This document shows, one piece after another, positions 22,270 through 40,088 of a stretch of DNA of 40,088 nt. The notes beneath the pieces are model-generated. The model worked only from the letters and a program-made list of their open reading frames with translations. It was not told the DNA's origin and searched no databases. The stretch is taken from NCBI RefSeq assembly GCF_017921895.1, contig NZ_JAFIDN010000017.1, positions 1-40,088 of the forward strand, in the 5' to 3' direction. The DNA is from Natronogracilivirga saccharolytica (GTDB lineage: Bacteria > Bacteroidota > Rhodothermia > Balneolales > Natronogracilivirgulaceae). Position numbers and translations under genes: made by a program. The first letter of the stretch is position 1, and each line of letters starts with the position of its first letter.

Positions 22270-24012
22270 GTGCCTCTCATGTTGTACCAACACAGCCTTG
22301 TGCCCCTGACGGCACTCTCCCTTCTGTTCGTTCTGATTATTGGTCTGCTGCCATCCGGCCTGGAAGCCCAGGACAACGAACGACGCCGCTCGATGCAAAT
22401 TCAGATGAGCCCGGAAATTGAATCCAATTTATTTTTCGATGAACTCGGCCTCGAAATGACGCTGGCACGTTTTCATGAAACCTACCTGGACATCGATACA
22501 TACGAGCTGGGCCCCGGTGACCTGCTCGGACTCACCCTCAAGGGCAATGTAAGCGGAATTTTTCGCGGCATGCGGGTAAACAGTCATGGAGCCATACTGA
22601 TTCCGCGCGTAGGTTCGGTGAAAGTCGACGGACTTCTTTTTGATGAGGCCAGGGAGCTGATTGAAAGCAAAGTTCAGGAAGAGCTGCCCGGAACGTCGAT
22701 TTCCCTGACACTTGAACACCCCAGAAACCTGAAAGTAAATGTTGTGGGCAACGTCCCGTTTACCGGTCCCCAGATCGTGCTGGCTCAAACCAGGGTAGAC
22801 CAGGCAGTCTATCACTCTTTTTTCGAGCCGGTGGCGGATGATCTTGAGGACGAGATCATGCTTGCAAATAAATATCCTCAGGAATTTATCGAGAGCAATC
22901 AATATGCGATCCGGAACATCGTAATCAACCGGAAGGACGGCTCACAGGTTACCGCTGACCTGTACCGGTATCTCAAAACCGGTGACGAAAGTGCCAACCC
23001 GGTGGTCAAAGAGGGGGATATCATCAATATCCAGGAACTTCACGACCATAACCCGCGTGTTTCGGTTTCGGGAGGTGTAAATCAGGACCTGGAACTGGAG
23101 TACCGGTCCGATGACACGATCGACCGCCTGATCAAGATGGCCGGCGGCCCCACATACGATGCCGCCGAAGACTACATCCGTGTCAGCCGCGTCACAGAAG
23201 AAGGCGCCCGGGACATCGTTCTGGACGACTCCGCCTCCATTGCCGGATTCGACCTGCAGCCCAACGATCGTGTGATTATCCCGTACGATCGTGACAAACG
23301 CCGCACCGAAAATGTCCAGGTTTTTGGTGAAGCCAACTACACCGGAAGATTTTCTATAAAGGATGGTGAGACCACATTGTATGAATTGATGGAGAAAACG
23401 GGGGGACTTACCTCCATGGCGCTTCCGCAGGCGGCCTATCTGATGCGGACCCAGCCCGGCCGGACCGAATACGGCATCCGTCATGCATTTGACCCGCGTG
23501 CACTGACCCGGACCTCCGATCAGGTGATGCAGGGATTTGAGTATCTGGATCTGGAAGCCCAGCTTATCCGAAACCGGGTCTACATTGACCTTACCGATGA
23601 AGATCAGCTTAAAGATGTCACCCTGTATCATGGCGACCGGCTGCACATCCCGAAAAACGAGGGTACGGTATTTGTGTTCGGACAGGTAAACCAGCCCGGT
23701 TACTATAATTTTGACGAGGACAAGTCGAGCAGCGACTTCATCAGCAAAGCCGGCGGATTTGCACTCTCGGCCGAAGAAGACCGGGTTTTTGTAATCAAGG
23801 CGCAGACCAATTCCTGGCACCGGCCGGACGATACCATCATTGAACCCGGAGATCTCATTTTTGTCGACAGAGAGCCGTTTGACGAACTCCAGGCAGCCCG
23901 GACCTACGACATGCAAAAGCGCGCCCAGCGCAACAGCAATATTCAGCTGGTCATGACCGGCCTGACCACCATTACCAGCATCATCACTGCCTACATCGCC
24001 GTGACCCGATAA
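22270..24012 (+). CDS. Wza-like SLBB polysaccharide export protein
   Basis: A 580-residue outer-membrane polysaccharide exporter. After a signal peptide (SLLFVLIIGLLPSGLEAQ) comes a Poly_export domain (about 75-160, beginning TYELGPGDLLGLTLKGN), then several SLBB domains, seen as repeated VxVxGxVNxxG segments: LKVNVVGNVPFTGPQIV, PRVSVSGGVNQDLELEY, NVQVFGEANYTGRFSI and TVFVFGQVNQPGYYNF. The C-terminus has a hydrophobic segment (VMTGLTTITSIITAYIA) that may span the outer membrane like the Wza helix. It exports capsule or EPS together with the Wzz-like protein two genes on. No lipobox is evident. GTG 22270 and ATG 22279 are both possible starts. Confidence 0.9.
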   Translation: MPLMLYQHSLVPLTALSLLFVLIIGLLPSGLEAQDNERRRSMQIQMSPEIESNLFFDELGLEMTLARFHETYLDIDTYELGPGDLLGLTLKGNVSGIFRGMRVNSHGAILIPRVGSVKVDGLLFDEARELIESKVQEELPGTSISLTLEHPRNLKVNVVGNVPFTGPQIVLAQTRVDQAVYHSFFEPVADDLEDEIMLANKYPQEFIESNQYAIRNIVINRKDGSQVTADLYRYLKTGDESANPVVKEGDIINIQELHDHNPRVSVSGGVNQDLELEYRSDDTIDRLIKMAGGPTYDAAEDYIRVSRVTEEGARDIVLDDSASIAGFDLQPNDRVIIPYDRDKRRTENVQVFGEANYTGRFSIKDGETTLYELMEKTGGLTSMALPQAAYLMRTQPGRTEYGIRHAFDPRALTRTSDQVMQGFEYLDLEAQLIRNRVYIDLTDEDQLKDVTLYHGDRLHIPKNEGTVFVFGQVNQPGYYNFDEDKSSSDFISKAGGFALSAEEDRVFVIKAQTNSWHRPDDTIIEPGDLIFVDREPFDELQAARTYDMQKRAQRNSNIQLVMTGLTTITSIITAYIAVTR

Positions 24013-24055
24013 CTTTTTTCCGCAAACAGTCAAAATCTGCGGATACCACATTCGA

Positions 24056-25351
24056 ATGAAGCTACTTTTTTTATCACAGTATTATCCACCCGAAACCGGC
24101 GCCGGCGCTACCCGAGCGGAAACGCTCCGAAGGTACCTTGCCGGGCTTGGATGGGAGATTGACATACTGTGCGAGCTTCCCAACTATCCGGATGGTGAGA
24201 TTCCCGAGGAATTCCGCGATCGTTTTTTTCACGAGACACTCGAAGAGAACGGCAGCTCAGTAGTGCGGACCTGGGTCATCCCGACCCGCCGCGAGAATTT
24301 CTTCCAGCAGATCCGGATGTTCGCCTCCTGGATGTTCAGCAGTTTTCTATACGGGCTGATGAACCCGAAGAAATACGATGCCGTGTATGCCACGTCCCCT
24401 CCCATATTCGGCGCCATTTCCGGATTGATGCTGGCACGGCTGTACCGCATCCCTTTTTTCTTTGAAGTCCGCGATCTATGGCCTGATGCCGCCCTCGAAA
24501 CGGGTCAGGTCGAGGAGAAAAGCCTGGTCTACAAAATCAGCAAATACATCGAGCGTGTGCTTTACCGGCATGCCGACCTGGTCATCCCGGTTACCAGGCG
24601 TTCCGAGGAACTGATAAAAATCACGGAGCCGGAAGCACGAACGCATGTCATTTACAACGGGGTGGATGTCAGCCATTTCCGGAGAGTGGATAAGCCTTAT
24701 GATATCATAGACGAGCCGCTGCGCCGCGATGTGTTCCGGGTGGGGTACGCCGGGACCATAGGTGTCATCCACGATCTCGAAACGGTTGTCCGCGCGGCTA
24801 AAATGCTGGAAGATGAAGAAGATATCGAGTTTTTGCTGATCGGCGACGGCAGCCGTTCGCACCAGCTCAAAAAAATGCTCGACGAACACCGGCCGAAGAA
24901 CATCCGCTGGATCGGAAGCAAATCACACAAGACGATTCCGGCGTATCTGTCCACATTCGACCTTGCCCTTAATCCGGTCTTCGACACCCGTGTTTTTGAA
25001 TCCATACTTACCGTCAAGTTTTTCGAATACCTTGCCTGCGAGGTACCGGTGATTTCCACGGCGCGGGGCATTCTCAAGGAGGTGGGCGAGATCAGCAAGG
25101 CGGCGGTCACCCTCCCGCCGGAGGATCCCGAAGTACTTGCCCGCACCATCCTCTCACTCAAAAAAGACGAAAAAAAGCGTGAGCAGCTGCGCTCGAACAG
25201 CAGAACTTTTGTAGAAACCTACTTCGACAGAAAAAAATGGGCCGGCGAACTGTCGGAAGTACTGAAATCGCGTCTGAACCGGTCCACCGATTCACCAACT
25301 CCTCACCACTCTCTTCACAAAGACATATCCAGTTCCGGATATAACTGGTAA
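24056..25351 (+). CDS. Glycosyltransferase family 4 (WbuB-like)
   Basis: A 431-residue GT-B glycosyltransferase. The N-terminal domain opens with MKLLFLSQYYPPETGAGATR, the signature of WbuB-type enzymes (glycosyl_trans_4_4), and has FFEVRDLWPDAALETG. The C-terminal GT4 domain contains HVIYNGVDVSHF, RVGYAGTIGVIHDLETVVRA, a LLIGDGS strand and FFEYLACEVPVISTARG. It transfers a sugar from a nucleotide donor to the growing lipid-linked repeat unit on the cytosolic face. The donor cannot be named; amino-sugar specificity is common among relatives. It lies 44 bp after the exporter gene and 5 bp before the wzz-like gene, clearly one operon. Confidence 0.9.
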   Translation: MKLLFLSQYYPPETGAGATRAETLRRYLAGLGWEIDILCELPNYPDGEIPEEFRDRFFHETLEENGSSVVRTWVIPTRRENFFQQIRMFASWMFSSFLYGLMNPKKYDAVYATSPPIFGAISGLMLARLYRIPFFFEVRDLWPDAALETGQVEEKSLVYKISKYIERVLYRHADLVIPVTRRSEELIKITEPEARTHVIYNGVDVSHFRRVDKPYDIIDEPLRRDVFRVGYAGTIGVIHDLETVVRAAKMLEDEEDIEFLLIGDGSRSHQLKKMLDEHRPKNIRWIGSKSHKTIPAYLSTFDLALNPVFDTRVFESILTVKFFEYLACEVPVISTARGILKEVGEISKAAVTLPPEDPEVLARTILSLKKDEKKREQLRSNSRTFVETYFDRKKWAGELSEVLKSRLNRSTDSPTPHHSLHKDISSSGYNW

Positions 25352-25356
25352 GCACT

Positions 25357-26598
25357 ATGAGCAAAGAAGCAAAAAAAGACGAAATTCAATTGCTGGATGC
25401 CCTGATTGTTCTGGCAAAGGACAAATGGCTGGTTTTCAAGATCGTTTTTTCGGTCACCCTGATCGCCCTGATCATCAGTCTGATCTGGCCCCAAACCTAC
25501 AAATCGAGTGCCACGGTACTGCCGCCGGACCAGCAGCAGACCTTTTCCGGCATTGCCGGAATGCTGGGCGGAATGGTGCCGATGAACCTGGGCACCGAAC
25601 CGCAGGTGAATCCGGAGGCCATGCTGACCATCCTCAACAGCCGGTCCATGCGGGTGGCACTGATCGATGAATTTGATCTCTATGAGGTGTACGAAAGCGA
25701 TATTATTGAAGAGTTGCTGCTGAAGCTGGAACAGAATGTTTCCATAGAGGAAAGCCGTGAAGGCGGATTCGGTTTCAATCCCATAACATCCATTCGTATT
25801 TCCATCACAGACCGGGAGCCGGAACTTGCCCAGGCGATGACACGATTCATGGTAGAACGGCTGGAGGAGACGGTCAATGAACTCAACCGGATGAATGCGT
25901 TCGAACAATACGATATCCTGGCCGAACGCTACGAACGAAATGTGCGCGAACTTGAAGAGGCCGAACTTGCCCTGAAGGAGTTTCAGGAGACGTACGGACT
26001 GATTGAAGTGGAAAAGCAGGCTGAGGCGATCATCGACAATCTGGCTGACATCAAATCACAAATGATTGAAACTGAAATCGCCATGAATGTGATGAGGGAG
26101 AGTGTCAGTGAGAACAATCCCGAACTGCGCAACCTCAGACGCACCTATCGCGAGCTGGACAAGAAGTACAACGAGCTTGTACAGAAAAGCGACCAGGAAG
26201 CCCGGACTGCGGATGTGGTTCATCCCATTCTGGATATGCCCGAACTTGCCCTGCAGTACTATCGCCTTTACAGAGAGGTTACGGTCCAGAACACCATCTA
26301 TGAAACCATTTATCCGCAGTATGACTTTCAGCTGACCATTGCCGAGGCCGACAAGCGCGGTGTTCAGGTTCTTGATGAAGCCCATCTGCCGACGTACAAA
26401 GATGCACCGAAACGGGCGTTTATTGTGCTGGGCGGAATGGTATTCAGCATTTTTGTTTCTTTCATGCTTGTGTTCTACCGCCACACCATGGCCGTCGGAC
26501 GCGAAACCAATTCGGCGCGCTATCAGCAGATCCGGGAGCTGCAGGAGAACCTGCGATTTTCCTTCCGAAGAAAGAAGAACAATAATGAAGACCGGTAA
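25357..26598 (+). CDS. Wzz/chain-length determinant protein
   Basis: A 413-residue polysaccharide co-polymerase with a first membrane segment at about 28-48 (FKIVFSVTLIALIISLIWP), a Wzz domain opening with TYKSSATVLPPD, a long periplasmic coiled coil (about 180-300) with a GNVR-like region, and a second membrane segment near 350 (AFIVLGGMVFSIFVSFMLVFY). There is no C-terminal tyrosine kinase domain; the tail is short and basic (RFSFRRKKNNN). It sets chain length and couples synthesis to the Wza-like exporter. ATG 25357 follows the upstream stop by 5 bp. Confidence 0.9.
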   Translation: MSKEAKKDEIQLLDALIVLAKDKWLVFKIVFSVTLIALIISLIWPQTYKSSATVLPPDQQQTFSGIAGMLGGMVPMNLGTEPQVNPEAMLTILNSRSMRVALIDEFDLYEVYESDIIEELLLKLEQNVSIEESREGGFGFNPITSIRISITDREPELAQAMTRFMVERLEETVNELNRMNAFEQYDILAERYERNVRELEEAELALKEFQETYGLIEVEKQAEAIIDNLADIKSQMIETEIAMNVMRESVSENNPELRNLRRTYRELDKKYNELVQKSDQEARTADVVHPILDMPELALQYYRLYREVTVQNTIYETIYPQYDFQLTIAEADKRGVQVLDEAHLPTYKDAPKRAFIVLGGMVFSIFVSFMLVFYRHTMAVGRETNSARYQQIRELQENLRFSFRRKKNNNEDR

Positions 26599-26607
26599 CA
26601 TCCGCTT

Positions 26608-28065
26608 GTGTCTTCCCTCTTTGACCATATTGCCGTAAAAGACAACCGCACAGAATGGCTGATTGCCGGCGGGGTAGTACTGGTCTTTGCCTTTTTCAGG
26701 CTGGTGACCTGGTCGATGGGGCTGCCCCCGCTTGACCTGGTTGCCCTTGCCGGTCTCATTTTCGTTTACGGGATTACCCGCACGGTAACGCAACCTGTAC
26801 TGCTGCTGATTCTTATCACAACCGGCTCACTGCTGGGCAATCTGATCCTGATTGTCGAAGACGGACTGATCCCGTTTTCCCTTTTCCAGATCTTCTACAT
26901 TTTCGGATTGCTGGTGTTCGTCATGCGTTGGTTCATGACCGGCTTTGAACCGATCCGCAAAACAGGATTTGAACTGGAGATCGCTCTGTTCTTCTCACTC
27001 ATCTTTTTATCCATTATCTGGACCCCTGATGCCGAAAAGGCTTTTCTGCATGCCCTGCGGGTTCTGGTCCTCTCAGGGCTGCTTTTCCTGTTTGTCAACT
27101 GGATCAAAAAGCCGCAGGAAATTGTCTGGGTGATCTATTCGATGATTGCGGTAGGAGCTGTAATCGGTGCCATAGCTATCATCGAAACCATTAACAATCC
27201 GATTGCCATTGTGCAGGACATGTACACCGAGGGTACGCGGCTGGCCGGACGCGCCCGCATCGGACAGGTGGATCCCAACATTTTCGGCTCGCTCTTTTTT
27301 CTGCCGCTGGCCTACCTGGCGTCACAGACATTTTCCGGCATATCTTACTGGAAACGAGTATTAAGCGCTCTGTTCTTTCTGATTTTATTTGCCGCTGTTC
27401 TGGTCACCTTTTCAAGAAGCTCCTGGGTTTCGGTTCTGGTTATGCTGATTTTCCTTGCCGTCTTTTACCGGCAGTATAACCTTTTTCTTTTCGGTGCCGC
27501 GGCGGGTATCATACTGGTAATTGCCGTTCCGGAACTGCAGTATCTGCTGCAAAATATTTTTAACCGCTTTATAGACCTTTTTTCGGGCGAAGTTGACACC
27601 TCCAACTTTATCCGTATCATGCTGCTGGACGGCTCCCTCCGTATCTTTTTTGACAGCTGGCTGCTGGGCGTAGGCTGGCGCGGGTTTCCCGATGCATTTC
27701 TCTCCTATTACAACCTGCAGGAAACACTCGGAGTGTATGAGCCCCACAACGTTATATATCAGGTATATTCCGAACTCGGATTGATCGGGCTGATTATCTT
27801 CACCTTTATCGTTTACAAGATATTCGCCATGGCATGGCACAATATCCGGTTGAGCAAAACTCTCGCACACAAAAACATCGCAGTCGCTCTTTTTGCGGCT
27901 TTTCTTGCCTATGCCGTTTTTTATCAGTTTATCGGGTTTGGCTTTCTTGACAATCAGTTATGGATCACCACCGGACTCATTATCGCTCTGAATTACTACC
28001 TCAGAAACCAAAATGATCCGGATGAAGCAACATCATCAGCGCAGGAAAAAATAACAGCTGCCTGA
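26608..28065 (+). CDS. O-antigen polymerase/ligase family protein (Wzy/WaaL)
   Basis: A 485-residue integral membrane protein with about 10-12 hydrophobic segments and the Wzy_C / O-antigen ligase signature (PF04932). VTFSRSSWVSVLVMLIFL precedes a large periplasmic loop, and YEPHNVIYQVYSELGLIGLI has the conserved His-Asn and E-x-G. In a Wzx/Wzy locus it most likely polymerises repeat units at the periplasmic face; a ligase role cannot be excluded from sequence. It begins at GTG 26608, 9 bp after the Wzz gene, and is followed 18 bp later by a glycosyltransferase gene. Confidence 0.88.
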   Translation: MSSLFDHIAVKDNRTEWLIAGGVVLVFAFFRLVTWSMGLPPLDLVALAGLIFVYGITRTVTQPVLLLILITTGSLLGNLILIVEDGLIPFSLFQIFYIFGLLVFVMRWFMTGFEPIRKTGFELEIALFFSLIFLSIIWTPDAEKAFLHALRVLVLSGLLFLFVNWIKKPQEIVWVIYSMIAVGAVIGAIAIIETINNPIAIVQDMYTEGTRLAGRARIGQVDPNIFGSLFFLPLAYLASQTFSGISYWKRVLSALFFLILFAAVLVTFSRSSWVSVLVMLIFLAVFYRQYNLFLFGAAAGIILVIAVPELQYLLQNIFNRFIDLFSGEVDTSNFIRIMLLDGSLRIFFDSWLLGVGWRGFPDAFLSYYNLQETLGVYEPHNVIYQVYSELGLIGLIIFTFIVYKIFAMAWHNIRLSKTLAHKNIAVALFAAFLAYAVFYQFIGFGFLDNQLWITTGLIIALNYYLRNQNDPDEATSSAQEKITAA

Positions 28066-28083
28066 CCATCTAACGGGATCTAT

Positions 28084-29349
28084 ATGGCAAATCAAAGACC
28101 CCAAAAACACCTGATCGTTCTCAGTGCCAGCTATCCATTCGGGAATGGAGAAATTTTCCTTGAAAATGAACTCCCGTTTCTCGTCGAACGATTCGGACAT
28201 ATCTTCCTGCTGCCAACGTTTTCGTACGGTTCCCCGAGAAACCTTCCGGATGGTGTGACCCTGCTCCCCCCGGAACCACCTTCACAGTGGCGGCTATTGG
28301 AGTTTATTCGCGGCTTTTTGTCATCCGGGGGTATGTTTTTACCTGAATGGAAACGTGCATCGGGCCATCCCTTTTCACCGTATCAATTCTATCTCACATC
28401 ACGGACACTGGGGATTGCGCGCCGGATGGAACAGCGCATACTGAAGACCATTGCTTATTATAATCTTAAGGATGGCATCATTTATTCCTACTGGATGCAG
28501 CAGGCGTGCATGGGGGGAATCATGGCGGCCCGAAAGCACAGCTGGACGGTGGCAACCCGTGTACACGGCGGCGACTTGTACACCGAGCGATATGCCGGCA
28601 ATTTTTTGCCGTGGCATGAATGGAAAGTGCGCAATGCGGATTATATTTTTCCGGTATCACAAAACGGCCGTGATTATCTGGCGCAGCGATACCCCGGCTG
28701 TGCCGGTAAGATCCGTCTGATGAAACTGGGTGTCAGCGGTCCGGCCAGAATTCCGCCGGATCCTTCCCCCAAAACAAAAACCGATGCCGGTCCGGAGTCG
28801 TTGCATCTGGCTTCCTGCTCCTCAGTAATCCCGTTGAAACGGGTGGATCACATTCTTGAGACGGTGCACAAACTAAAAGAACTGTTACCCGCCCTGGAAA
28901 TTCGCTGGACGCATATCGGAAACGGTCCGCAATTCTCATCACTGCAAAACCGTGCCCGGAGCATCACCCGTGAAGGTCTGCGAATCGACCTGAAAGGCCA
29001 CCTCCCGAACAATGAGGTCAGACAATTCTACCAGACCGGCGGAATCGACCTGTTCGTAAACTACAGCACATCAGAAGGGCTACCGGTAAGCATCATGGAG
29101 GCGTTCAGTTGCGGCATACCAGCGGCAGCTCCGGATGTTGGGGGCATTCCCGAGATTGTAGACAAATCGAACGGACTGTTATTCGACCCGGACACTCCCC
29201 CTGAAATCCTTGCAAAGCAGATAAGTGACCTGTACCGGTCCGGCGCACTGTCGGATATGCGTACTTCAGCAAGAATAAAGTGGGAACAGGAGTTCCGGCT
29301 TGAAAGCAACTATCAAAAGTTTGCCGATTTTCTTTATTTTGAACTATGA
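28084..29349 (+). CDS. Glycosyltransferase family 4
   Basis: A 421-residue GT-B enzyme similar in layout to colanic-acid/amylovoran-type transferases (WcaL/AmsK-like). The N-terminus LIVLSASYPFGNGEIFLENE is typical, as is RVHGGDLYTERY. The GT4 C-terminal domain shows LHLASCSSVIPLKRVDHILE, LKGHLPNNEVRQFYQ, and an E-x7-E motif in SEGLPVSIMEAFSCGIPAAA followed by DVGGIPEIVDKSNG. It adds a sugar to the repeat unit of the surface polysaccharide. It is the last biosynthetic gene of the rightward operon, 79 bp before the CotH gene. Confidence 0.9.
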   Translation: MANQRPQKHLIVLSASYPFGNGEIFLENELPFLVERFGHIFLLPTFSYGSPRNLPDGVTLLPPEPPSQWRLLEFIRGFLSSGGMFLPEWKRASGHPFSPYQFYLTSRTLGIARRMEQRILKTIAYYNLKDGIIYSYWMQQACMGGIMAARKHSWTVATRVHGGDLYTERYAGNFLPWHEWKVRNADYIFPVSQNGRDYLAQRYPGCAGKIRLMKLGVSGPARIPPDPSPKTKTDAGPESLHLASCSSVIPLKRVDHILETVHKLKELLPALEIRWTHIGNGPQFSSLQNRARSITREGLRIDLKGHLPNNEVRQFYQTGGIDLFVNYSTSEGLPVSIMEAFSCGIPAAAPDVGGIPEIVDKSNGLLFDPDTPPEILAKQISDLYRSGALSDMRTSARIKWEQEFRLESNYQKFADFLYFEL

Positions 29350-29427
29350 CCTCGCACCCGCTGCTTTTTCCCTGCAAAAAGATATTTTGTTACACAGCGA
29401 TAATACTATCATACAGGGAACCATAAG

Positions 29428-30846
29428 ATGATCAAAAAACTCCTGCTTTCCCTCCTTTTTTTACTGGCTTGCCTTGTTTCCGCTCAAGCTTCGACACCCA
29501 CTGTGGCAATCAATGAAGTGATGGCATCCAACGGATCCACCGTGTTCGATGAGGACGGCGATGCCGAAGACTGGATTGAACTCTACAATTACGGTGATGA
29601 ACCTGTTGACCTGCAATGGTTCGGGTTATCGGATGACTATGAAAATCCATACCGCTGGATTTTTCCCGATGTTACTATCGATCCCGGCGAGTTTCTGCTG
29701 ATCTGGGCTTCCGGCAAAGACCGGACGGATCCCGACCAGCCGCTGCACACCAATTTTGCCATTGCATCCGCAGGCGAGGAAGTTCTGCTCACTTCGGTCG
29801 ACGGTGAGCGTATCGACGAACTGCAACCGCTAAAACTTCCAACCGATCTCTCTGTCGGGCGCAAACCCGACGGTGTCGGTGACTGGTATTTTTTTGAAGA
29901 CCCCACCCCCGGTCTGCCCAACACAACAGAAGGATACCAGCAGGTGCTTACGGAACCGGTGTTCAGTAAACCACCCGGGCACCACACCGGATCCATCGAA
30001 CTCGATCTGACCCACCCCGATGATCATGTAACAATTTATTACACTACCGACGGAAGCCGGCCGGACAGCGATTCCGACGTCTGGGAGGGACCGAAAACAT
30101 TACAAGACCGCACCAGTGAACCGAATGACATTTCGATGATCCGCACAACCAATTCCGACACGCGCTCGGAAGGATGGAATGAACCCGGCGGACCGGTGCC
30201 CAAAGCCCATACTATCCGGGCCATAGCCAAACGTGATGGTCATCTGCCAAGCGCTGTAAACACCCACAGTTTTTTTATCGATGAAAACGGGTCGGTATCT
30301 CATGGGCTGCCGGTGTTTTCACTTGTCACGGACCCGGAACATCTGTTTGACCACGAAACCGGTATTTATGTTCCCGGAGCAGACGGCGAATCGGGTGAAG
30401 TTCATCACGGAAATTTTGAAAACCGTGGACACGATTGGGAGCGAAAAACGTCTCTCGAGTTTTTTGAGACAGATGGCAAGCGGGTACTGGCCACAGATAT
30501 GGGACTCCGCATTCACGGCGGATGGTCCCGTCGCAATGCTCAGAAGTCCGTCCGGATATATGCAAGAAACGAATACGGAGACAACAGGTTTTACTACTCA
30601 TTTTTTCCCGATCTTCCTTACAATCAATACAACCGGCTTATCCTTCGCAATTCCGGCAATGACTGGGCTTACAGCCTGTTCCGCGACGGCCTGGCGCAAA
30701 CGCTGATCTCTCATCTTAACTTTGACACCCAGGAGTACCGGCCGTCCGTAGTCTATATCAACGGCGAATACTGGGGCATTCACAATATCCGGGAACGGTA
30801 TGACCAACACTACCTGAAACGTGTTTACGGCTTGCAGGAAGATGAA
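29428..30846 (+). pseudogene. CotH-kinase/lamin-tail secreted protein, 5' half (split by an IS)
   Basis: The first 473 codons of a large secreted protein. Residues 1-21 are a signal peptide, about 25-135 a lamin-tail domain (VAINEVMASNG...DEDGDAEDWIELYN), about 165-270 a chitobiase/CHB_HEX-type domain (VTIYYTTDGSRPDS), and from about 290 a CotH kinase-fold domain with LRIHGGWSRRNAQKSVRIY and VYINGEYWGIHNIRERYDQ. CotH proteins have an atypical protein-kinase fold. At 30846 an IS begins; the frame runs 17 codons into it and stops at TGA 30895-30897. The rest continues at 32276 in the frame expected after IS removal. The intact protein would be 1111 residues, exported and T9SS-sorted. It follows the polysaccharide genes on the same strand. 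Confidence 0.85.
30839..30846 (+). repeat. Target-site duplication, left copy (AAGATGAA)
   Basis: An 8-bp direct repeat identical to 32268-32275, immediately outside the IS left end. Eight base pairs is the usual duplication length of ISL3-family elements. Confidence 0.92.
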
Positions 30847-30879
30847 GGATCAGTTGCATTCTCTGGGGAGAAGCCAGTT

Positions 30880-31812
30880 TTAGGCATAAATTTTTGAAAG
30901 ACGGAAGAGAAAGAATTCAGCATCTGTCACACCACGTTGTATAGCCCGGAACTGCTTGACCTTGGCATTGAAAGATTCGGCTGATGCATTGGTGGACCGG
31001 TTCAAAAAGAAGTTTGCGATATTCTCAAGATAATGCTCAATGGTGTAAGCCATGCGCCGGAAGCCTTTGATTTTATGCTTCTTTGACTGGGCAATCCACT
31101 GTTGGAGTTGCTCTTTGCCATGAATTCGATTCTGCTGTTTTTTATAGATTTGATTTAGCTTGAGCCTGTGATCGTGAGCTTGTTTCAGCTCCGGATACTG
31201 CTCAAAAAGTATCTTCATGCGCATCTGTTGATTCAAGGTCCATTTGCCGGAATGCTTGAACAGCGCATACCGGCTTCGGGCCAAGAGTTGTTTGCGAGTA
31301 TCACCGTTATGAAATACTTCCGGCCGATAGGATTCTCCTTGCTTTTTAGCCTCTTTAATGGCCTCGTTTTCGGCTTCTATGGCCTCCCAGCGCAGTTTTA
31401 CACGAAGGTGTTGAAGGACTTCGTGTCCGAGTTTTTCTACGTGAAAGCGGTCTATGACCAAATCGGCATTGGGAAACAGCTCGCGTACGGCTCCGGCCAT
31501 GTTCTCGGCCATATCCAGGGTGACTTCTTGGACCTGCATGCGTTTATGCTGCGGGATCCGACTGATTTGAGCTACAATCTCATCGGTTTTGGTACTACCT
31601 ATACTGGCCACCAGCGCTCCTTTTCGCCCCTTAGCCGCCTTATTCGTTAAAAACGTGTACAATTCGCCTTTGCTCACACTCAGCTCATCCAAACTTAATT
31701 TCTTACCGATATTTTCCGGAAATACCAGATACTCCGAGGCGTGTTTGCGAGCCGGCCAGTCCTCATAACCACTGACATCCTTGTATTCCCGATAGACCAG
31801 ATGATAGTTCAC
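30880..31812 (-). CDS. ISL3/ISAon1-type transposase, catalytic ORF
   Basis: A 310-residue DDE transposase region of the ISL3 family. LSLDELSVSKGELYT holds the first Asp, VTLDMAENM and LVIDRFHVEKL further conserved Asp/His positions, and the C-terminal SAESFNAKVKQFR the Glu. It would cut and rejoin the IS ends. It starts at GTG 31812 by frame, but this has no ribosome binding site and lies 14 bp beyond the stop of the upstream ORF; its frame is in fact open from about 31869, overlapping the N-terminal ORF by some 40 bp in the -1 frame. It may therefore be made as a frameshift fusion of about 430-440 residues, the usual ISL3 size. Confidence 0.88.
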   Translation of the reverse strand: MNYHLVYREYKDVSGYEDWPARKHASEYLVFPENIGKKLSLDELSVSKGELYTFLTNKAAKGRKGALVASIGSTKTDEIVAQISRIPQHKRMQVQEVTLDMAENMAGAVRELFPNADLVIDRFHVEKLGHEVLQHLRVKLRWEAIEAENEAIKEAKKQGESYRPEVFHNGDTRKQLLARSRYALFKHSGKWTLNQQMRMKILFEQYPELKQAHDHRLKLNQIYKKQQNRIHGKEQLQQWIAQSKKHKIKGFRRMAYTIEHYLENIANFFLNRSTNASAESFNAKVKQFRAIQRGVTDAEFFLFRLSKIYA

Positions 31813-31826
31813 TCGGTAAAGGCCGG

Positions 31827-32216
31827 CTATCGTTTTAATCGATTCGGTTCGCGTTTCGATGAGTACCTTTTAAAAAAAGCCGAGAACTCACTGGTGATTT
31901 TCCGGCTGCCGAGAAGGTGGCTGTAGTCATTGTATATTATACGGTTAGGGTCTTTCTTATGGCGCCAACGCCTGCGCTTGATACTCAGATATACGTTCTT
32001 GTTTCGAATCGGAAAGTCGATGAGCTTCTTTGGCTCGGTAAACCCCTTGCTCTCATACTCGGCAGGATCATAGCTTTCCGGCAGCTGATTCTTCTCGGCC
32101 AAGTGAATGTGAATATATTTTTCATCCTGACCCTCGGTTCCCTGCTCGATCTTCTCTATATCAAAATGATCCAGCATTCCTTCCGGTAATATGAGTTCGG
32201 CTATTTGTTTTTCCAT
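31827..32216 (-). CDS. ISAon1-type transposase N-terminal region protein
   Basis: A 129-residue ORF beginning MEKQIAELILPEGMLDHFDI. It holds the N-terminal part of the transposase: an acidic start, a basic middle (YLSIKRRRWRHKK) and a probable helix-turn-helix-type DNA-binding segment. I chose ATG 32216 because the related element at the window's right edge has the same ATG at the same distance (about 50 bp) from its end; TTG 32222 adds two residues. A TTTTTTTAAAA tract (minus strand, 31868-31878) lies where its frame begins to overlap the catalytic ORF. Confidence 0.82.
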   Translation of the reverse strand: MEKQIAELILPEGMLDHFDIEKIEQGTEGQDEKYIHIHLAEKNQLPESYDPAEYESKGFTEPKKLIDFPIRNKNVYLSIKRRRWRHKKDPNRIIYNDYSHLLGSRKITSEFSAFFKRYSSKREPNRLKR

Positions 32217-32267
32217 GCTCAAGTATACTGCTTTTCCTGCTCACTCCCCAAGATTTGCAATTGACCC

Positions 32268-32275
32268 AAGATGAA
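32268..32275 (+). repeat. Target-site duplication, right copy (AAGATGAA)
   Basis: Identical to 30839-30846. Joining 30846 directly to 32276 restores the CotH reading frame (Q-E-D-E / V-D-L-L-T-G). Confidence 0.92.
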
Positions 32276-34192
32276 GTGGACCTGCTTACGGGAAGGCACT
32301 ATGCTGATCCCGGAGATAATGAGCACTGGCTTGCCATGCGGGAGTATGCCGACGAACATGATCTGTCCGAGGAATCCCATTTCAGACATATGACCACACA
32401 GATGGATATGGACAGCTATCTGGACTATTATGCCTCCCAAATCTTCTATGCCAACAATGACTGGCCCCACAATAATATCGACTATTTCCGCAAGCGGGTT
32501 TCTTACGATTCCACTGCCGAACCGGGTCATGACGGTCGCTGGCGCTGGATGATGAGAGACCTTGACCGCTCCTTCAATCTCAGTACCCAGGATGATTTTG
32601 ACATGATTGAATGGGTCACTTTGAAAGAAGATGGCAGATATGGCGAAGAATGGCCCAATCTGCTGCTCCGCAATCTGCTGGAAAATGACCAGTTCAGGAT
32701 ATCCTTCATCAACCGTATTGCCGATCTTCTCAACACAACATTTCAAAAAGATCGCCTTACTTCCGCTATTGACAAACAAAAAGCCATCATCGGCACGGAA
32801 ATTGAAAACCAGGTGCTCAGATGGCAGAAACAAGGCTCAAAACAAGGGTGGATGGCGCATTCTGCCGGTGTCAATGCCATGTACCGCTTTGTTGAAAACC
32901 GTGAAGGCCATCTTCGTGAACATGTCCGCAAACATTTTGACATCGAATCCGATGTGAACCTGACGCTTGATGTTTCGGATCCTTCCGGAGGTTACATTGC
33001 TGTCCATAACACGGACATCAAGAGCAGCACCCCCGGTGTTGAAAACAATCCATGGCCATGGTCCGGCAGCTATTTTCAGGATGTCCCTGTAACAATGAAG
33101 GCAAAAACATGGCCGGGTTATACCTTCTCACACTGGGAAATTGCGGATTCCACAGCCCATGAAGAAACCATTACCCTGCCGATGTATTCTGACACTTCAA
33201 TCAAAGCTGTCTTTCAAGAAGATGACAAAGAATTATTCCCCGAACCGGTAGTTTTAGCGGATACCGATTTTACGTTCGATTACTGGCCGGCAGATACCAC
33301 CTCAGGCCATTTCCCCGATCATATGGCTTTTGTATATATGGATGAGCCGGAACCACATGAGTATGCCGGGATATCCGGTTACACAGATGGAGATTATGAT
33401 CTTGAGGACAGAACACGCATCAATGGTCTTGGAAATGACGGTTTTGCCTTTATCAACACCAGCAATCCCGATGGTAATCCGGGATATCCCGGAACACGGC
33501 TTGGAGGGGCATTGCTGGCCCTTGACACCAGGACCAGCGACCCTGTTTCCGTAACATTTCAGGCCGGAACCGTGCGTCCAAATTCCCGCGTGTACAATCT
33601 GAGACTGCAATATCGTCTTGGGGATGACGGTGAGTTCCGCGATGTAACAGACGGGGACGGGGAACCGGTTGAGTACCTGAGAAACGAAGAGGCCGGACAC
33701 AATCAAACCATTGGCCCTGTCAAACTTCCGGAAGAACTAATGGACAAGGCCTATGTCCAGCTCTTATGGCGATATTATTACAGTGGGACCCGGCTCGATG
33801 CTGACAGCGGTCAGCGTTCGAAACTCAATATTTCCAAAATAACCGTGGTGACGGAAGAGCCGGATGAAGACGAAAATGGCGAAAATGGCGAAAATGGCGA
33901 CAATGACGACAAGAATGGACAATTGCCGGAAAAACTCACATTGAAGCAGAACTATCCAAACCCTTTTAATTCACAGACAAATATTGCGTTCGAACTTCCG
34001 GATGCAAGTCACGTAATGCTTCAGATTTTTGATGTAACTGGACAATTGATGATGACTTTACGACAGAGATCATATGAAGCAGGCACACACACCGTGCAAT
34101 TTGATCCCGGCAATATATCAAGCGGCGTTTATATTTATCGTCTTCAAACAGACTTTGGAACCGAATACAAGAAAATGACTATTCTGAGGTAG
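32276..34192 (+). pseudogene. CotH-kinase secreted protein, 3' half with T9SS sorting domain
   Basis: Codons 474-1111 of the interrupted gene plus the stop. The rest of the CotH kinase region is visible: DWPHNNIDYFRKR and GRWRWMMRDLDRSFN, the latter carrying the conserved Asp near residue 561. An InlB-type B-repeat (TMKAKTWPGYTFSHWEI...SIKAVFQED), an immunoglobulin-like region and an acidic linker encoded by 9-bp repeats follow. The protein ends in a T9SS type A sorting domain: LKQNYPNPFNSQTNIAFELP, LQIFDVTGQ and SSGVYIYRLQT. A frame opens at TTG 32255 inside the IS, but it has no signal peptide, so a functional product is unlikely. It is convergent with the methyltransferase gene, only 6 bp away. 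Confidence 0.85.
33872..33907 (+). repeat. 9-bp minisatellite (GAAAATGGC x3 + variant)
   Basis: Three perfect GAAAATGGC units and the variant GACAATGAC encode the E-N-G repeats in the acidic linker just before the T9SS domain. Copy-number change would alter linker length without shifting frame. Confidence 0.75.
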
Positions 34193-39583: not shown

Positions 39584-39962
39584 TTATTTCACCAATGTCA
39601 TTTGCCGGGTTTTTGTAAATTGTGAAGTAGTGATACGGAAAATATATATGCCACTTGCTAAATTTGTCGCATCGAACAAAACTTCGTGGCTACCAGCTTC
39701 CATCTGATCGTTAACTAATGTTGCCACTTTTCGACCCAAGAGGTCATAGACTTCCAGCCTTACATTACTGGTTTCTGGCAGGTCGTAACTTATCAAAGTT
39801 GTCGGATTGAAAGGATTTGGATAATTCTTATGTAATTTGCCAACCTTTGGCAAATCACCAGAATTATGATGCATCTTTTTATTATTTATAGGGTCGGCCT
39901 CTCCTCTATACATTTGATTAATCTGATTAAATACCTCTGAGTCAGGGTAATAAGAAAAAAGT
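39584..39962 (-). pseudogene. T9SS-sorted surface protein, C-terminal fragment
   Basis: About 125 residues up to the IS boundary at 39962. The C-terminus is a textbook T9SS type A sorting domain: LHKNYPNPFNPTTLISYDLP, VRLEVYDLLGRKVATLVNDQ, EAGSHEVLFDATNLASGIYI and a basic end (FTKTRQMTLVK). Upstream of 39963 the frame continues 20 codons into IS sequence to a start at 40024, so the present N-terminus is IS-derived and lacks a signal peptide. The rest of the original gene should lie beyond the IS, outside the window. Confidence 0.8.
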
Positions 39963-40088
39963 GGATCAGTTGCAAAAGTTGGGGAGAAGTATGAGATATA
40001 GTATACTTGAGGATGGAAAAACAACTACTCGAACTCATACTGCCCAAAGGGTTGCTGGATCACTTTGATATCGAGAAGATCGAGCAAG
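39963..40088 (+). mobile_element. Start of a second ISL3/ISAon1-type IS (partial)
   Basis: From 39963 the sequence GGATCAGTTGCA...TTGGGGAG repeats the terminal sequence of the IS at 30847-32267, and 50 bp inward an ORF starts with MEKQ, as in that element. Protein identity over the visible 25 residues is about 80%, so it is a relative, not a recent copy. It points rightward and runs off the window. The left flank AAAAAAGT (39955-39962) would be its target duplication. Confidence 0.8.
40013..40088 (+). CDS. ISAon1-type transposase N-terminal region protein (partial)
   Basis: ATG 40013, preceded by TTGAGG; the window ends after 25 codons (MEKQLLELILPKGLLDHFDI, then E-K-I-E-Q). It matches the N-terminal ORF of the IS at 30.8-32.3 kb with five or six substitutions in 25 residues, spaced the same from the IS end. 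Confidence 0.8.
   Translation, partial: MEKQLLELILPKGLLDHFDIEKIEQ

Follow-up and report, generated by a model that had tools for sequence, protein, structure and literature searches.

Probably recent insertion of an ISAon1-group element into a predicted secreted CotH gene of a Balneolales-type bacterium

The CotH protein of Bacillus subtilis is an active protein kinase, and its D228Q variant is inactive (PMC7821199). The insertion sequences (IS) of the ISL3 family are described as 1.2-1.5 kb in length, with imperfect inverted ends and an 8-bp target duplication, and the size, ends and duplication of the element reported here fall within that range (PMC5395568). The window (the whole stretch of DNA that was analysed, 40,088 nucleotides) was found to contain a gene of the CotH kinase family (PF08757) interrupted by this IS. 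The protein joined across the IS resembles the family in carrying a predicted full-length CotH domain. Unlike the B. subtilis CotH, it is far larger and appears to be secreted, with a lamin-tail domain (LTD), an Fn3-like domain and a T9SS sorting domain, and its gene is split. The locus is best read, at a probability of about 93%, as the recent transposition of a 1,421-bp IS of the ISL3 family (ISAon1 group) in a Balneolales-type bacterium. In this reading, the target was a hitherto uninterrupted gene whose CotH-domain product would be secreted and T9SS-sorted; 8 bp were duplicated and the gene was inactivated, the loss being tolerated and the IS probably stable.

The interrupted gene lies on the plus strand, with the N-terminal half (residues 1-473) at 29428-30846 and the C-terminal part (residues 474-1,111) at 32276-34192. 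When the IS and one copy of the duplication were removed by a script, the two parts were found to join into 1,111 codons without a stop or a frameshift. In the Pfam profile search, the joined protein contained an LTD domain at residues 20-132, followed by the presence of an Fn3-associated/chitobiase-like (Fn3_assoc/CHB_HEX) domain at residues 183-282, the CotH domain at residues 360-684 and a divergent InlB-like repeat with a score slightly below its cut-off. Residues 1-22 resemble a signal peptide by inspection alone. At the other end, residues 1033-1109 form a type A sorting tail of the T9SS (TIGR04183, 46.3 bits against a cut-off of 23; PF18962 also above its cut-off). The CotH profile scored 149 bits in the joined frame (cut-off 23.8), covering profile positions 1-320 of 322, as against 76 and 88 bits in the separate halves. 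The IS interrupts the frame behind residue 473, within the CotH domain. The N-terminal half thereby holds the putative signal peptide, the LTD and Fn3-associated/CHB_HEX domains and the first third of the CotH domain, followed by the presence of the remaining CotH domain, with a DLD motif, and the T9SS sorting domain in the C-terminal part. The open joined frame of 1,111 codons and the split within the kinase domain had both been put forward in the original prediction, and both were reproduced.

The CotH homologues compared were those of genomes of the same family and order, and twelve of them were aligned. The best relative (G006) was found to share 56% identity across residues 2-1111 of the joined protein, and the eleven others 43-50%. 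The full-length homologues compared were single ORFs spanning the joint. The joined protein thus matches its CotH relatives from end to end, as the original prediction had proposed, and the arrangement named there as contrary evidence, with the halves as separate genes in homologues, was not seen among those compared. The alignment contained 175 invariant columns, located on both sides of the joint, with an invariant K373 on the N-terminal side and invariant D568 and D570 (the DLD motif) on the C-terminal side. These three positions, judged solely from the invariant columns, are probably catalytic; a sequence search of the PDB gave no structure with an E-value good enough for mapping catalytic residues. 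In the genome, searched piecewise, 12 CotH loci were found (13 matches, two of which are the halves of the split gene), and the gene at 29428-34192 was the one among the 12 found to be cut by an IS. In another paralogue (L130, at about 472.7-476.1 kb of contig C1), a small indel close to a run of G (near L130:5085-5112) appears to shift the frame between the positions homologous to residues 317 and 321; it is either a mutation or a sequencing error.

The CotH gene is the last in a run for polysaccharide export and synthesis at 22270-34192 of the window. According to the Pfam assignments, the run was found to contain Poly_export (22270), followed by the presence of a glycosyltransferase (24056), Wzz (25357), an O-antigen ligase (26608) and a second glycosyltransferase (28084) upstream of the CotH gene. 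The homologues of G006 and G050 differ in their setting, lying in cassettes with VTC and DUF4956 genes, plus HlyD-like genes in G006.

The IS occupies 30847-32267 (1,421 bp), with its transposase on the minus strand. The inverted ends begin with GGATCA and GGGTCA, and the terminal repeats (GGATCAGTTGCATTCTCTGGGGAG / GGGTCAATTGCAAATCTTGGGGAG) are imperfect, with 17 of 24 bases matching. One of them adjoins the 3′ end of the transposase (30847-30870, plus strand) and the other the 5′ end (32244-32267, minus strand). On either side of the IS stands an exact copy of the 8-bp duplication AAGATGAA, at 30839-30846 on the left and 32268-32275 on the right. The IS boundaries and duplications first proposed were exact to the base. 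The probability of such an 8-bp identity arising by chance at precisely both ends was computed as about 1.5e-5. An assembly chimera or consensus error, with no real insertion, might be considered for a draft genome of 49 contigs in which contigs break with overlaps of about 127 bp at a related IS. However, a chimera would not yield a perfect 8-bp duplication at the exact ends of the IS, and the IS of the window is unique in the genome and was hence assembled through, unlike its repeated sister; this reading is considered extremely improbable.

The sister IS, whose ends are about 80% identical to those of the IS in the window, starts at 39963, and the contig ends inside it (window 39584-40088). 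It cuts off a minus-strand gene for a protein with a T9SS tail (39587-39962). The same sister was found at four contig ends (the end of C9, the end of C11, the start of C7 and the end of the window; L056, L057 and L058), with overlaps of about 127 bp. The four 8-mers flanking it all differ and do not pair into target duplications.

The transposase of the inserted element was found to consist of two parts, both on the minus strand. The upstream ORF (31827-32216, ATG at 32216) matched the ISAon1_upstream model NF049916 with 109.9 bits (cut-off 55), followed by the presence of a downstream frame (30880-31866) with a DDE domain, which matched the ISAon1_downstr model NF049917 with 432.5-443.7 bits (cut-off 250) and Pfam PF01610 (DDE_Tnp_ISL3). 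The element is assigned to the ISL3 family and its ISAon1 group, with which it shares the two-part transposase, the DDE_Tnp_ISL3 domain, the length (1,421 bp), the 8-bp duplication and imperfect terminal repeats of about 24 bp that begin with GG. The assembly contained one full-length match to it, and the other DNA matches were partial, with 68-81% identity except for one 32-base piece. Contig C5 carries one diverged full relative, and contig C14 holds decayed fragments. The nearest DNA relative within the order was positions 1590-1760 of L060 (G003, contig C42; SLOL01000087, a Balneolales MAG), with 91% identity over 168 bp; the match was rejected as a full relative of the IS, being merely a terminal remnant.

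The age of the insertion was bounded from the state of the two halves. Across the 3,333 coding bases of both halves no stop or frameshift was found, and 3.65% of random substitutions in the joined coding sequence were computed to create a stop. From stops alone, the neutral divergence since insertion is below about 2.5% (95% bound). With indels included, it is below about 0.4-1.0%, assuming 0.05-0.2 indels per substitution, a ratio which was our own assumption. These bounds hold unless the halves are still under selection, and they are not convertible to years. Because neither half has accumulated a lesion, a recent insertion is supported. The recent date claimed in the original prediction is therefore well supported by the lack of decay and by the intact single-ORF homologues across the joint.

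The claim that the insertion preserves the frame did not stand. The IS and one duplicate add 1,429 bp, which is not a multiple of three, and the N-terminal half was found to run 16 foreign codons into the IS and to stop at 30897. The frame is restored only by exact removal of the IS, as for any clean insertion. The C-terminal half lacks a signal peptide. The sole start codon close to its joint was a TTG within the end of the IS, and the transposase runs on the opposite strand, away from this half. The split gene is probably inactivated, because the N-terminal part is missing both the DLD-bearing portion of the kinase domain and the sorting tail, and the C-terminal part lacks the signal peptide. 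With 11 further CotH loci in the genome, the loss would be tolerated. An old insertion whose halves are maintained as two functional genes would agree with both halves being still open. Nevertheless, such a gene fission is hardly credible with full-length homologues that are single ORFs, a cut kinase domain, a C-terminal half with neither a signal peptide nor a start near the joint other than the TTG, and a transposase directed away from it.

The relation between the two transposase frames was compared in 41 distinct ISAon1 copies across Bacteroidota, with the window copy included (e.g. L048, L065, L100 and L173). In 39 of the 41 copies, the downstream frame stood in a +1 relation to the upstream one, and the junction, read in the upstream frame, was mostly TTY TTA AAA N; this +1 relation is a common feature observed here and not a published defining trait of ISAon1. 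The two exceptions were one copy with both parts in the same frame and the window copy, which alone is -1. The recoding site of the window copy (TTTTTTTAAAAG, 31867-31878, minus strand) is one T longer than the usual site of the family and contained a run of seven T nucleotides, GCT TTT TTT AAA AGG, in the assembled sequence. Two other copies (L098 and L102) also contained a seven-T run, but in a phase that keeps the +1 relation, whereas in the window copy the run stands in the other phase. The IS is nevertheless kept in the ISAon1 group, because the curated models and its other features fit, and it is read as a mutated copy of that group and not as a different family.

No conserved start codon was found at the beginning of the downstream ORF in the ISAon1 copies compared, for which reason independent initiation was rejected; the group probably makes its transposase as a recoded fusion protein. 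Canonical -1 slippery heptamers were also rejected, since the relation of the family is +1. On that premise, the window copy probably does not yield the full transposase by the usual route. It is tentatively suggested, at somewhat less than even odds, that the ISAon1 transposase is made through a conserved +1 recoding, mostly at TTY_TTA_AAA_N, and that the window copy would be a natural one-base expansion which blocks or alters the site. The +1 step could possibly arise by a slip of tRNA-Lys from AAA to AAN, or by the loss of one A through slippage of RNA polymerase. In the library searched for ISAon1 and for ISL3 frameshifting and slippage, no paper described this recoding site. The IS may have been mobilised before the T was gained, or in trans by the sister element.

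The original prediction had also allowed for a reversible on/off state. In such a phase-like switch, the IS would excise precisely and leave a fraction of the cells with a whole CotH gene. The perfect target duplication and the undamaged halves would permit such a restoration on exact removal, although both are expected of any recent insertion. DDE insertion sequences seldom excise precisely. The transposase of the window copy is framed -1 and not in the +1 of its family, no other copy of this IS was found in the genome, and no empty site was seen. A phase-like switch is therefore unsupported and very unlikely. In the preferred reading of a recent, inactivating insertion, the IS is probably stable in place, given the extra T at its recoding site and the lack of a second copy in the assembly.

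The event is an ordinary one of a known kind, a textbook knock-out in which an IS has hit a single member of a large set of paralogues. Its use lies in being an IS insertion that can be dated, and it indicates that the loss of a CotH gene which closes a polysaccharide locus is possible where 11 other CotH loci persist. The one-base slip in the frame-shift signal is the sole mildly unusual detail of the event in the window, and the conserved +1 frame transition in the widespread ISAon1 group of Bacteroidota is the most interesting by-product of the analysis.
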